41,134 bases of DNA, taken from positions 1 through 41,134 of the forward strand of contig JANWJD010000002.1 of assembly GCA_025449555.1 (NCBI GenBank), given 5' to 3'. The notes under the pieces are model-generated. The model saw only the letters and a list, made by a program, of their open reading frames with translations, was not told the DNA's origin and ran no database searches. The position numbers and the translations under genes were made by a program. The DNA comes from Chloroflexota bacterium. GTDB taxonomy: Bacteria; Chloroflexota; UBA5177. Below, one piece after another: positions 8,012 through 24,776 of the stretch; the stretch's first letter is position 1; each line of letters opens with the position of its first letter.

Positions 8012-8078
8012 GCTCGCCGCTACCGCGTTCCGGGTGCGCTAGGATTGCGTGTCACTTCCCATCCCGAGGTCAACATTC

Positions 8079-9134
8079 ATGATTCCCTTGCTCGAGCGTT
8101 ACTCTGACTATTTGCCTCTCACGGCGGAGACACCACTTCTGACATTGGGAGAGGGCAGCACCCCGCTCTTGCGTGCTCGACATCTCGAGCGGGAGCTGGG
8201 TTGCGGCGTGTTGTACCTCAAGTACGAAGGGATGAATCCGACCGGCTCTTTCAAGGATCGCGGCATGGTCCTCGCCGTGGCGAAAGCGGTGGAGCGCGGT
8301 GCGCGCTCGGTCATCTGCGCCTCCACCGGCAATACCGCCGCGTCGGCCGCGGCGTACGCAGCGTCGGCCGGCCTCGCGTGTTCGGTCATATTGCCGGCCG
8401 GATATGTGGCGCCCGGGAAACTCGCGCAGGCGCTGGTGTACGGCGCACGGGTGGTACCCATCGACGGCACGTTCGATCAGGCGCTCGCTCTGGTGCGAGG
8501 GGCCGCGGCCGTATCCGGTGCCGAACTGGTGAATTCTGTGAATCCATTTCGGCTCGAAGGACAAAAGACCGGGGCATTTGAAATTTGTGACACGCTGGGC
8601 TCGTCGCCCGATGTCGTCGCTCTCCCCGTTGGCAATGCCGGCAACATCACGGCGTATTGGAAAGGCTTTCGCGAGTACCGCGACCGAAATGTCGTTCAAG
8701 GTGTGCCGCGCATGTGGGGGTTCCAGGCAGAAGGAGCGGCTCCCCTGGTCCAGGGCAGACCGGTCGACCACCCGCAGACGCTAGCAACCGCCATCCGCAT
8801 CGGGAAGCCGGCGCGGGGGGACGAGGCACTGGCCGCGGTCGCGAACTCGGGAGGACTGCTCGATGCCGTGTCGGATACTGAGATCATGGACGCATATCGA
8901 CTGGTAGCTTCGACCGAAGGCGTGATGTGCGAACCTGCATCCGCCGCGTCGATCGCTGGAATACGGAAGAGAGTTGCAGCCGGCGAAGATCTCTCGGAGT
9001 CGACAGTGGTTGCCATCCTGACCGGCCACGGCCTGAAAGATCCGGCGACGGCCCTCGCACAGTTTGGTGAACTCGTACCGGTCCCTGCCACGCTTGAATC
9101 CGTGCTCCACCCCATCGGGACGGCACCGGTGTGA
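8079..9134 (+). CDS. thrC: threonine synthase
   Basis: PLP-dependent conversion of O-phosphohomoserine to L-threonine. The 351-residue protein is the short ThrC type. LGEGSTPLLRA (about 23-33) opens the family; Lys59 in GSFKDRGM is the Schiff-base lysine; the loop PVGNAGNITAYW binds the PLP phosphate. The ATG at 8079 is preferred because CGAGGT stands 8 bp upstream and the protein then begins at the usual place. A GTG at 8049 is in frame and only 3 bp after a TAGGAT box (8040-8045), so a leaderless longer form is possible. Its stop overlaps the thrB start (GTGA), so the two genes are translationally coupled. Confidence 0.95.
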   Translation: MIPLLERYSDYLPLTAETPLLTLGEGSTPLLRARHLERELGCGVLYLKYEGMNPTGSFKDRGMVLAVAKAVERGARSVICASTGNTAASAAAYAASAGLACSVILPAGYVAPGKLAQALVYGARVVPIDGTFDQALALVRGAAAVSGAELVNSVNPFRLEGQKTGAFEICDTLGSSPDVVALPVGNAGNITAYWKGFREYRDRNVVQGVPRMWGFQAEGAAPLVQGRPVDHPQTLATAIRIGKPARGDEALAAVANSGGLLDAVSDTEIMDAYRLVASTEGVMCEPASAASIAGIRKRVAAGEDLSESTVVAILTGHGLKDPATALAQFGELVPVPATLESVLHPIGTAPV

Positions 9135-10048
9135 AACGTATACGCATCGACGTACCGGCAACCAGTGCAAATCTCGGCCCAGGCTTCGATTCGTTGGGTA
9201 TGGCGCTCGACATCGCCGATACCTACACCGTCGAATTCGATGCCAGCGGACGAGAGATCCTGGTCGATGAGGCTACGTGTGCCGAGGCCGAGATAGACCG
9301 GAGCGATCACTACGCCTGTCAGGGGTACCGGGCATATGCCGCGGATGCCGGGGTCACGTTGCCCGGCGCGAGCTTCACGCGGGAGGGCCAGATCCCGGTG
9401 GGAAAGGGCTTCGGGAGTAGTGCGGCGGCGATTGTCGCCGGCCTAGCGGCCGCCGCGCATGCCGCCGGCGAGCAGGATGGTCAAGACCGTATGGTGCGCC
9501 TTGCTGCCCACCTGGAGGGCCATCCGGATAATTCCTCCGCCGCCATCCTGGGGGGTGTTACGGTCGCATTTTGCGACGGTGAGGCGGTGCACGCGCTCAA
9601 CGTCGTCAACCACGTATCCCTTGGGGTTGCTCTCTTCGTGCCGGACATGCCGCTACGCACGGTGGAGGCACGTCGGATTCTCCCGGAGCACGTGTCGGTG
9701 CGCGACGCTGTGTATAACCTGTCGCGGTCCGCTTATCTGGTAACCGCCTTTGCCTGGGGACGGTGGGAGCAGGCTGCACCCGCCATGCAAGATCGCCTGC
9801 ACCAACCGTACCGCACGCACCTCATCCCGGGCCTGGACTGCGTGATCGCAGCCGCCGTGGAAGCGGGCGCCTTTGGTGCTTCGCTGTCGGGGGGAGGGCC
9901 GGCTGTGCTCGCATTCGGGCCGCAAGAGCTGAGTCACGAGATCGCGGCACGCATGGAGGAAGTGGCTCACCATCAGGATTGGGCCGGCCATAGCCTGCAA
10001 ACACAGGTGCGGTCGTATGGAGTGCGGGTAACCGAACTGGACGGTTAG
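9131..10048 (+). CDS. thrB: homoserine kinase
   Basis: Phosphorylates homoserine, giving the substrate of the preceding thrC product. A GHMP kinase of 305 residues: the N-terminal VPATSANLGPGFDSLG block (8-23), the ATP-binding PVGKGFGSSAAA at 89-100, EGHPDNSSAAILGG, and the C-terminal GAFGASLSGGGPA motif are all present. The GTG start overlaps the thrC stop by two bases. The gene ends with TAG, followed 20 bp later by proB. Homoserine dehydrogenase is not in this window. Confidence 0.95.
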   Translation: MKRIRIDVPATSANLGPGFDSLGMALDIADTYTVEFDASGREILVDEATCAEAEIDRSDHYACQGYRAYAADAGVTLPGASFTREGQIPVGKGFGSSAAAIVAGLAAAAHAAGEQDGQDRMVRLAAHLEGHPDNSSAAILGGVTVAFCDGEAVHALNVVNHVSLGVALFVPDMPLRTVEARRILPEHVSVRDAVYNLSRSAYLVTAFAWGRWEQAAPAMQDRLHQPYRTHLIPGLDCVIAAAVEAGAFGASLSGGGPAVLAFGPQELSHEIAARMEEVAHHQDWAGHSLQTQVRSYGVRVTELDG

Positions 10049-10053
10049 TTGAC

Positions 10054-10059
10054 TATAAT
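10054..10059 (+). promoter_or_regulatory. -10 box (TATAAT) between thrB and proB
   Basis: A consensus TATAAT preceded by TTGAC lies 9 bp before the proB ATG. It could give proBA a separate, nearly leaderless transcript. I see no good -35 hexamer at 17 bp, and the TG two bases from the box is only an approximate extended -10. Confidence 0.5.
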
Positions 10060-10068
10060 TCGGCCATC

Positions 10069-11211
10069 ATGACCGACTCATTTCGCTGGCGCCGTCCTGT
10101 TCTCAAGTTCGGTACCAGCACGCTGACGGGCGGTACCGCCCAGCTCAGCCTGGGCCGGCTGGCGGATCTGGTCGAACAGGTCGCAGCACTGCAGATGGCC
10201 GGCGTTCAGCCGATCGTCGTCTCGTCCGGTGCGATCACGGTCGGGCGCCAGCGACTGGGTTCACCGCGCGACCGGAAAGATGTGAGCTTTCGACAAATCT
10301 TGGCGGCCGTCGGCCAGAGCCGGCTCATGCACCTGTACGATGAGTTTTTCGAGTTCCACGGCATCACCTCTGCCCAGGTGCTGGTAACGCGGGCGGATCT
10401 GGCCGAACGGCAACGATACCTCAATGCCAGGAATACATTGTTGGGCCTCTGTGCGCGCGGGGTCATTCCGATTGTCAACGAAAATGATGTCGTCGCCTCG
10501 GAGGAAATCAAAGTGGGAGACAACGACACGCTCTCCGCATTGGTCGCCAATCTCGTCGATGCCGATCTACTCGTGTTGGTGAGCGACACGCCGGGTCTTT
10601 ATACAGCTGACCCGTTGGTGGACGCTCGAGCCGAACTCGTGCATGACGTCGCAAGCATCACTCCCCAGGTGGAAGCGTATGCGAGCGGATCCAGTTCCGG
10701 CCTCGGGACCGGGGGCATGTCGACCAAAGTCTCCGCCGCCAAATAGGCCACGTCGTCTGGAACCGAGGTTCGGATCGTCGACGGAAGCGAACCAAACGTC
10801 ATCATGCGCGTCATGCGTGGAGAAGCGATCGGCACACGTTTTCGTGCCGGTTCGGACCGAATCGAGAGTCGAAAGCGATGGATCCTGTCCGGTCTCAGCC
10901 ATTCAGGGAAACTGGTGGTGGACGCCGGAGCGTCGCATGCCCTGCTCGAAGCCGGCGCCAGCCTGTTGCCGGCGGGCATCGTCGACGTTCAGGGGTCGTT
11001 CGAGCGCGGCGACTCCGTCGATATCGTCGGCCCAGACGGCAAAACGGTGGCGCGAGGTATTACGAATTACGACTGGAACGACGTACGCAGACTGCTGGGT
11101 CGACAGTCGCTGGAAATTGAAGACACACTGGGCTACACCTACGGGAGTTATGTCGTGCATCGCGACGACCTCGTGCGGTACCAGCGTCAGGAGCAAGTGA
11201 CCCATGCTTGA
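10069..11211 (+). pseudogene. proB: glutamate 5-kinase with an in-frame TAG at codon 226
   Basis: ATP-dependent phosphorylation of glutamate, the first step of proline synthesis. One frame of 380 sense-position codons carries the complete ProB layout, but TAG occurs at 10744-10746. Before it lies the amino-acid kinase domain: KFGTSTLTGG, VVSSGAI, GQSRLMHLYDEFF, IVNENDVV, GDNDTLSALVA and GTGGMSTK. After it, in the same frame, the last strand and helix of the kinase domain and an intact PUA domain continue without loss (GEAIGTRF, VVDAGASHALLEAGASLLPAGI). Thus no frameshift is involved. ATG codons at 10804 and 10813 could restart the second part, but the first part would lack its final core elements. 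The 3' end overlaps proA by 8 bp. A real nonsense mutation, a sequence error, or readthrough are all possible; proA downstream is intact. Confidence 0.85.
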
Positions 11212-12478
11212 GATTGAAACTCTCCGCGACACAGCGCAACGTGCCAGAGCTGCAGCGACCGTGCTGGCGACGCTCGGTACCGATGTGCGCGACGCGATAC
11301 TCTTCGACCTGTCCGAGCGGCTCCGAGCACGAGCCGGCGCAGTGCTAGAGGCAAATGCGTCCGACGTGGCCGACGCTGAATCCTCCGGGATGGAGGAAGC
11401 GATGATCGATCGACTCCGGCTCACTCCCGAACGATTGTCCGGCATCGCATCCGATGTGCGGCGCATCGTCGACCTGCCCGATCCGGTGGGAGAAGAGTTT
11501 GATGCGCGGATCCTTCCGAACGGCCTGCGCCTTTCCCGACGTCGGGTGCCGCTTGGTGTGATCGGAGTTATTTACGAGTCGAGACCAAACGTGACGATTG
11601 ACGTTTCGGCACTCTGCTTGAAGTCGGGAAATGCCGTGATCCTGCGGGGCGGCAAAGAGGCCCGGCGCTCGAACGAATCCCTTGCCCGGTTGGTGCAGGA
11701 TGCCCTCTCGGCGCACGGAGTGACGCCGGATGCGGTACAGATGGTGCACGATCCGGATCGACGGCGCATTGGCGAAATGGTCCGCATGCGGGGCGAGATC
11801 GATTTGATCGTGCCGCGCGGTGGCGCAACCCTCATCGAGTACGTGCGTGAAAACGCTCAGGTCCCGGTGGTGGCTGGTGGTCTGGGAGTGTGCCATACGT
11901 ACGTGCATGGCGATGCCGACCTGGCCATGGCACTGGACATCGTAGACAACGCCAAAACCCGCCGACCATCGGTCTGCAATACGCTGGACACAGTTCTGGT
12001 GCATGTGTCCGTTGCAGGGTCCTTTCTTCCGCAATTGGCGCGCCGGTGGGCGGGGCCACCGGTCGAGATCCGGGGATGTGATCGAACCATCGACATACTG
12101 CGCGAGAACAACGCGCCGGGTCCGTGGCGTCCCGCCGAGCCGGACGACTTTGGACGAGAGTTTCTAGCCCTGCGCGCGGCAGTCAAAGTGGTTGATTCAC
12201 TGCCGGAAGCCATCGAGCATATCCGGAAATACGGAAGCGGACATTCTGAAGCAATCGTGACCGACGGGTATCAGGCCGCCACGGACTTCGTGAATGCCAT
12301 TGACGCGGCTGCGGTCTATGTCAACGCCAGTACGGGATTCACGGACGGTGCGGAGTTCGGGTTGGGGGCGGAAATCGGCATTTCCACTCAGAAATTTCAT
12401 GCGCGGGGGCCGCTGGGACTGCGCGAGCTGACCTCGTATAAATGGGTCGGACTGGGCACCGGTCAGATCAGGCCCTGA
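11204..12478 (+). CDS. proA: gamma-glutamyl phosphate reductase
   Basis: NADPH-dependent reduction of glutamyl phosphate to glutamate semialdehyde, the second step of proline synthesis. A full-length 424-residue member of the aldehyde dehydrogenase superfamily. The catalytic cysteine is Cys258 in RRPSVCNTLDT; PLGVIGVIYESRPNV (116-130), LRGGKEA and the LIVPRGGA block are the usual ProA motifs, and the C-terminal GAEIGISTQKFHARGP is conserved. The ATG overlaps the proB stop, so the pair is coupled; an SD-like GGAGCAAG precedes it. It ends 1 bp before the convergent L,D-transpeptidase gene. Confidence 0.96.
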   Translation: MLEIETLRDTAQRARAAATVLATLGTDVRDAILFDLSERLRARAGAVLEANASDVADAESSGMEEAMIDRLRLTPERLSGIASDVRRIVDLPDPVGEEFDARILPNGLRLSRRRVPLGVIGVIYESRPNVTIDVSALCLKSGNAVILRGGKEARRSNESLARLVQDALSAHGVTPDAVQMVHDPDRRRIGEMVRMRGEIDLIVPRGGATLIEYVRENAQVPVVAGGLGVCHTYVHGDADLAMALDIVDNAKTRRPSVCNTLDTVLVHVSVAGSFLPQLARRWAGPPVEIRGCDRTIDILRENNAPGPWRPAEPDDFGREFLALRAAVKVVDSLPEAIEHIRKYGSGHSEAIVTDGYQAATDFVNAIDAAAVYVNASTGFTDGAEFGLGAEIGISTQKFHARGPLGLRELTSYKWVGLGTGQIRP

Positions 12479-22420: not shown

Positions 22421-23314
22421 TCAAATGGCACGGTCCTCGATCGCGCGGTCGTAGACGAGTTGGGCCGTCACGACGTCCTCCACCGCGATACCCACCGACT
22501 TGAAGAGCGTGATTTCTTCGGGCGATTGCCTGCCGCGCGTGCGATCGAGGGCGACTTCTCCGAGTTCCGCCACGATCGTGCCGGCCTGCACATCCCCGGA
22601 TTCCGCTTGACCGGCATCACGGGAATCGACGTACAGGCGGGCACGTTGCATGGTAGTGTCGTCGAGTTCTCGCCAGGTGGGTCTGGTCGCGCCAACCGCG
22701 TTGATGTGAGTACCTGGTGACAGCCATTCGCCTTTCAGCACGGGAGCCGTGGAAGACGTCACTGTCACCACGATGTCGGCTCCCCGCACTGCCTCCTCTG
22801 CCGTGTCGGTCGCTCGGACATTATGCTCTCGGGCGAACGCCTGTGCCCCGTGCGGACTCCATACCCGAACCTCATGGAGAGGACGGACCAGCCGAAGAGC
22901 CTGGAGATGGCTGCGCGCCTGGACGCCGGAGCCCAGGATCGCCAGGATGGACGAATCTTCGCGCGCCAGCAGATTGGTCGCCACGGCCGAGGCAGCGGCC
23001 GTACGCATCTCGGTAATGAGCGTCCCGTCCATCGTCACCAACGGCTCACCGGTTTCGGGACTGAATAGCATGATAGTGGCGAGGTGGGTGGGAATCTCGG
23101 TGTTGCCTGGGTAAAAGGTCACCAGCTTCACCCCCAGGGAACCGGCATAGGCGGGCATCACACCGAGAAAGCCGCCATGTTCGGCGACGGGAACGACGCT
23201 GCGCACGGGCTGCACCACTTTGCCACTGGAAAAGTCCGCCAGCGCGGGCCCCATGGCGTCGATCACATCCTCCATGCGAATCAAGCGTCGCACTGCGTCT
23301 TCGTCCAGCAACAT
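22421..23314 (-). CDS. ornithine cyclodeaminase/mu-crystallin family enzyme
   Basis: NAD(P)-dependent enzyme of 297 residues. The N-terminal dimer part has GFLGVMPAY and LGVKLVTFYPGN; MRTAAASAVAT marks the substrate-side block that binds the carboxylate; the Rossmann part has ILGSGVQARSHLQAL (about 125-139), then VTSSTAPVLKGEWLSPGTHINAVGA. Members deaminate ornithine to proline, or act as alanine dehydrogenase or ketimine reductase; the exact substrate cannot be read. The nearby proBA genes give a loose link to proline supply. AAGGAGAG stands 5 bp before the ATG, a strong start. A TAGCCTAC box lies in its upstream region. It is convergent with the gene at 20770. Confidence 0.92.
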   Translation of the reverse strand: MLLDEDAVRRLIRMEDVIDAMGPALADFSSGKVVQPVRSVVPVAEHGGFLGVMPAYAGSLGVKLVTFYPGNTEIPTHLATIMLFSPETGEPLVTMDGTLITEMRTAAASAVATNLLAREDSSILAILGSGVQARSHLQALRLVRPLHEVRVWSPHGAQAFAREHNVRATDTAEEAVRGADIVVTVTSSTAPVLKGEWLSPGTHINAVGATRPTWRELDDTTMQRARLYVDSRDAGQAESGDVQAGTIVAELGEVALDRTRGRQSPEEITLFKSVGIAVEDVVTAQLVYDRAIEDRAI

Positions 23315-24224: not shown

Positions 24225-24776
24225 ATGGGTCGGTTCGAAAGGGTTTTCGTTGCGATGAAAGCTCGAATGCTCAGGTCACTCTGCGTCTTTGTGCTCCTTG
24301 TTTCCGGCGCTGCTGCGCTCCGTTTGCCCGGCGCTGTCCATGCAACAAGCGCTCATTCCTATGCCGGTAAGCGAATCACTATTTCACTCTCTCGCCAGCG
24401 GCTCCGCGCCTGGCTTGGAAACAAGGTGCTGCTGGTGACACCCGTGACCACCGGCAATGCAACCTTACCGACCCCCACCGGTCACTTCCAGATCTTTGCC
24501 AAAAGGAGTCCGTACACGTTCATCTCGCCGTGGCCCCGAAGTTCACCCGATTGGTACCCTCCCTCGCAGGTAAGCTTCGCCCTGGAATTTTTGGGAGGTG
24601 GTTACTTCATTCATGACGCTCCATGGCGAGGAGTCTACGGCAGAGGAAGTAACGCAGGTTCTCAGCCCGGCACGAATTACGGCGGCACACATGGTTGCAT
24701 CAACGTGCCGTACAACGCGGCGCGATGGCTGTACTACTGGGCGGATATGGGAACGCCGGTGCACGTCGTGCGGTAG
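24225..24776 (+). CDS. L,D-transpeptidase (YkuD domain), short form
   Basis: Peptidoglycan cross-linking enzyme, 183 residues. A signal peptide at about 15-38 is followed directly by the YkuD domain: KRITISLSRQRLRAWLGNK, TPTGHFQIFAKRSPY, FIHDAPWR and the catalytic GTHGCINVPYN. The C-terminal 110 residues match the enzyme at 12480 closely (shared phrases ISPWP/HSPWP, GGYFIHDAPWR, THGCINVP), so the two are paralogues; this one has no extra beta domains. The start may be the ATG at 24225, which lies 9 bp after TAGATC, or 24255, which gives a neater signal peptide. It ends with TAG, convergent with mutL. Confidence 0.93.
   Translation: MGRFERVFVAMKARMLRSLCVFVLLVSGAAALRLPGAVHATSAHSYAGKRITISLSRQRLRAWLGNKVLLVTPVTTGNATLPTPTGHFQIFAKRSPYTFISPWPRSSPDWYPPSQVSFALEFLGGGYFIHDAPWRGVYGRGSNAGSQPGTNYGGTHGCINVPYNAARWLYYWADMGTPVHVVR

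Follow-up and report, generated by a model that had tools for sequence, protein, structure and literature searches.

A premature TAG codon in an otherwise ordinary proB gene of a Chloroflexota draft genome

Introduction

The closest described counterpart of the gene considered here is the E. coli-type ProB, a glutamate 5-kinase (G5K) that carries a PUA domain (TIGR01027; PDB 2j5t). According to PMC6099280, E. coli G5K keeps its feedback inhibition by proline after deletion of the PUA domain, and proA mutants of B. subtilis are reported to be rescued through a rewired arginine metabolism (PMC9245794). A second point of comparison is provided by young bacterial pseudogenes as treated by Kuo and Ochman (2010; PMC2916853), which our gene resembles in being disabled and otherwise undecayed, and from which it differs in that the change in proB is known from one draft consensus alone.

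The gene lies in a stretch of 41,134 nucleotides (hereafter the window) that makes up the whole of contig C2 in the draft genome of a Chloroflexota bacterium (G000; 3.68 Mb in 293 contigs, 84.47% complete and 1.81% contaminated). When read through it matches the E. coli-type family over nearly its full length and shares the gene order proB-proA, whereas it departs from that family by one premature TAG at codon 226. This stop had been noticed in a sequence-only reading of the window, and here we set out what the frame, the relatives and the rest of the draft say about it.

Results

An isolated stop in proB

The proB frame opens at ATG 10069 and is halted by TAG 10744-10746 (Table 1), beyond which it runs on for 154 sense codons until TGA 11209-11211, its end overlapping the start of proA (ATG 11204). 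The frame, the TIGR01027 scores and the codon bias all bear out the sequence-only reading in that the stop is codon 226, that the remainder of the frame is intact and that no indel is involved. Its figure of 155 further codons was correct as to the continuation and wrong as to the count, since it included the terminal stop. The frame behind the TAG encodes what is left of the kinase, followed by the PUA domain. A further suggestion, that the true sequence might be AAAATAG, did not survive: with the extra A the frame would shift and the match behind the stop would be lost, so that the stop calls for a substitution and cannot be put down to a missing A.

Against TIGR01027 (proB; curated cut-off 186 bits) the front piece scored 277.6 bits, up to position 218 of the 363 in the profile, with 125.9 bits for the tail that starts at ATG 10804 (positions 240-362) and 437.8 bits for the read-through frame (positions 3-362). 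Both the front piece alone and the read-through frame thus lie above the cut-off and belong to the ProB family by score. Aligned to E. coli G5K, the front piece extends to about residue 222, and it falls short of the isolated kinase-domain chain 2w21 (259 residues, of which 257 were matched, aligned up to query residue 260). No single open frame of the gene here therefore spans the whole amino-acid-kinase domain, which by the alignment to 2w21 reaches about residue 260, whereas the stop falls at codon 226. In sum, the interrupted gene is an otherwise ordinary proB carrying one isolated stop. The adjoining proA is intact, as had been claimed for it. The order thrC-thrB-proB-proA (window positions 8049-12478) is also kept in relative G002, and in relative G004 the YkuD gene, the other neighbour in the window, adjoins proA.

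Table 1. Coordinates, in window positions, of the parts of proB and of the other genes discussed
Feature	Position	Strand	Basis
Front piece of proB: residues 1-225 of glutamate 5-kinase and the premature TAG	10069..10746	+	TIGR01027 277.6 bits; E. coli G5K alignment
Premature TAG, codon 226	10744..10746	+	Sense codon in 103/103 relatives
Continuation of proB behind the stop (kinase-domain end and PUA domain), open as far as TGA 11209-11211	10747..11211	+	Read-through 437.8 bits; coding bias 0.242 bits/codon
Same-frame restart ORF behind the stop, 135 aa from residue 246; probably no product	10804..11211	+	ORF list; first in-frame start, 19 codons past the stop
proA, glutamate-5-semialdehyde dehydrogenase, intact	11204..12478	+	NF001221 564.7 bits, cut-off 289
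thrB-like GHMP kinase upstream of proB, intact, TAG-terminated	9131..10048	+	Pfam PF00288/PF08544; stop codon
OCD/mu-crystallin family gene	22421-23314	-	Pfam 301 bits

The frame behind the stop is not yet decaying

Codon bias in frame amounts to 0.242 bits per codon behind the stop versus 0.249 before it, with values of -0.158 and -0.302 bits per codon in the two shifted frames behind the stop. Over residues 227-370 (144 columns) the source genome has 4 private substitutions, compared with 6 in G004, 7 in G003 and 9 in G002. The tail of proB is not yet decaying. Because its coding bias equals that of the front and private substitutions are not in excess, the stop is either of very recent origin, or missing from the actual genome, or passed by readthrough. 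Each of these three cases predicts an undecayed tail; an old pseudogene does not. This argument on age uses no dN/dS ratio, dS between members of the family being saturated or undefined. When codon bias was used to look for other interrupted genes in 299 kb (the window and 20 further stretches), 66 noisy candidates came up.

Codon 226 in relatives

Sixty relatives were searched with the read-through protein, which gave 23 homologous proB stretches for alignment once short or weak matches (partial contig ends, other kinases) had been left out. The genomes obtained included none of the same genus. In these 23 the column of codon 226 holds Leu in 17, Ser in 3, and Met, Asp and Ile in one each, with no stop, and Leu is found in all three same-family genomes that have proB. 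Together with 80 loci kept from a contig search they make up a set of 103 relatives, every one of which has a sense codon at this column, the state of the orthologues by which a pseudogene is judged. Within the matched spans of the 103, stops occur in the last residues at the gene end (10 loci) and nowhere else. Across the phylum, an internal stop is likewise absent from the 149 other proB matches among the 150 listed of 161, the source genome alone having one. By the comparison with sister genomes that the sequence-only reading had suggested, the sense codon found there makes the TAG an error or a lineage-specific mutation.

Use of TAG in the source draft

That TAG also ends other genes in the window was right wherever it was checked (thrB and the genes at 24225, 29097, 34712 and 35571); 11 of the 31 window ORFs picked as genes end in TAG, truncated proB included. 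Release factor RF1 is present in the draft (487.3 bits, cut-off 423.25), all 36 tRNA matches could be typed and none has a CUA anticodon in this 84%-complete draft, and no TAG or other stop was found inside 109 ABC_tran and 25 adh_short_C2 matches (134 in total). Global reassignment, already held to be unlikely, is accordingly disfavoured. Elsewhere in the draft (G000:C46:5224-5924, minus strand) a short-chain dehydrogenase (SDR) seemingly lies in two overlapping pieces in different frames (profile positions 1-138 and 135-234), a frameshift or indel that may be an error or a mutation.

ProB loss and other routes to proline

A match to ProB at E<=1e-50 was obtained in 160 of 400 phylum genomes and was missing from the other 240; among the 284 that are >=90% complete and <=5% contaminated it was missing from 150. 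Life without ProB is common in the phylum, to judge by these 240 genomes, and losing it is therefore not strange. Closer to the source genome, both ProB and ProA above cut-off are absent from G001 (same family, 95% complete) and G005 (same order, 92%), ProA being above cut-off in 4 of 7 class genomes. As to another proB copy, whose presence the sequence-only reading had left to be checked, none was found in the 84%-complete draft, where one of 5 AA-kinase matches exceeds the proB cut-off. The proC match in the draft (178 bits) is under its cut-off of 196.75, as it is in 2 of the 5 other class genomes having proC.

An ornithine cyclodeaminase (OCD) bypass tied to ProB loss was considered and set aside. 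The OCD-family protein of the window passes no NCBIfam (equivalog) cut-off; its closest chains by sequence are mu-crystallin and pyrroline-2-carboxylate reductase, and mu-crystallin/ketimine reductase chains are nearer to it than true OCD (270.6 and 257.7 versus 98.3 bits). It is at most 41% identical to other copies, and of the other 9 copies the 6 that were scanned are all below NCBIfam cut-offs. Good matches to the family number two each in G000, G001 and G005 and one each in G002, G003 and G004, with one good and one weak match in G006, a distribution that at first resembled a tie to ProB loss. We keep an OCD-family bypass of ProB only as a possibility. A route by ornithine aminotransferase was rejected as well, none of the 7 class genomes having a match above the TIGR01885 cut-off.

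Discussion

To our minds there is about an even chance that the TAG is a fresh nonsense mutation, real and very recent, that truncates the kinase. A single-base change in an ordinary proB would halt translation after residue 225, and the truncated enzyme, lacking ~35 residues at the end of the amino-acid-kinase fold as well as the entire PUA domain, would be expected to be inactive, which would leave the cell dependent on external proline or on another route to it. What is observed is the stop, the unbroken frame behind it, the sense codon of the relatives and the undecayed tail; a real base, an inactive enzyme and the effect on the cell are inferred. The TAG is unique to the source genome among the 150 listed proB matches and the 103 relatives, and G001 and G005 offer precedents for the absence of ProB. 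On the other hand, the perfectly kept tail and proA are just as expected under a sequence error, and the 134 stop-free domain matches suggest that nonsense pseudogenes are uncommon in this draft. A serious competitor, with somewhat less than an even chance of being right, is therefore an error of consensus or assembly, or a variant of a minority strain that entered the draft, the proB of the organism being intact. One substitution suffices for it, the draft is fragmented and incomplete, proB, proA and their neighbours are without decay, the stop occurs in only this one of the 150 listed matches, and one further conserved gene at least, the SDR on C46, is broken by a change of frame that may itself be an error or a mutation. 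Against it, the same 134 matches indicate a draft that is not full of nonsense errors, and the site itself shows no direct sign of one.

The remaining readings keep the gene at work. If the TAG were read through, by a suppressor tRNA or leaky termination, some full-length kinase would be made; the tail is conserved as though still translated, and the genome is incomplete, with some tRNAs (e.g. Ala, Ile, Tyr, Trp) not found, which leaves room for a suppressor. We regard this as improbable in view of the typed tRNAs, the presence of RF1, the 10 other window genes that TAG terminates, the lack of a stop at this column in any relative, and the lack of downstream structure, the 100 nt from the stop folding worse than shuffled sequences (z = +1.37). 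Recoding is unsupported, and it is more doubtful still that ribosomes translate the TAG, as a stop made leaky or suppressed, and that it thereby sets the level of glutamate kinase, and hence of proline synthesis, in a lineage that can often dispense with ProB. The idea that proB works as two proteins through a restart at ATG 10804 strikes us as very improbable too: the tail is intact, with an ORF of 135 aa for its PUA half, but residues 226-245 would belong to neither piece, by eye no purine-rich site at normal spacing precedes that ATG, and no relative is split like this. With those residues missing from both pieces, and the front piece shorter than the 2w21 kinase-domain chain, a working two-piece kinase is unlikely. 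The sequence-only reading had put a fresh nonsense mutation and a sequence error ahead of restart and rare readthrough, a ranking that the comparisons support.

Nothing indicates unusual biology. Taken alone the stop carries little weight, being a single disabling change in a single metabolic gene of one draft assembly. A real mutation would catch ProB loss at its first step, in a phylum of which more than half of the sampled genomes lack a ProB match.
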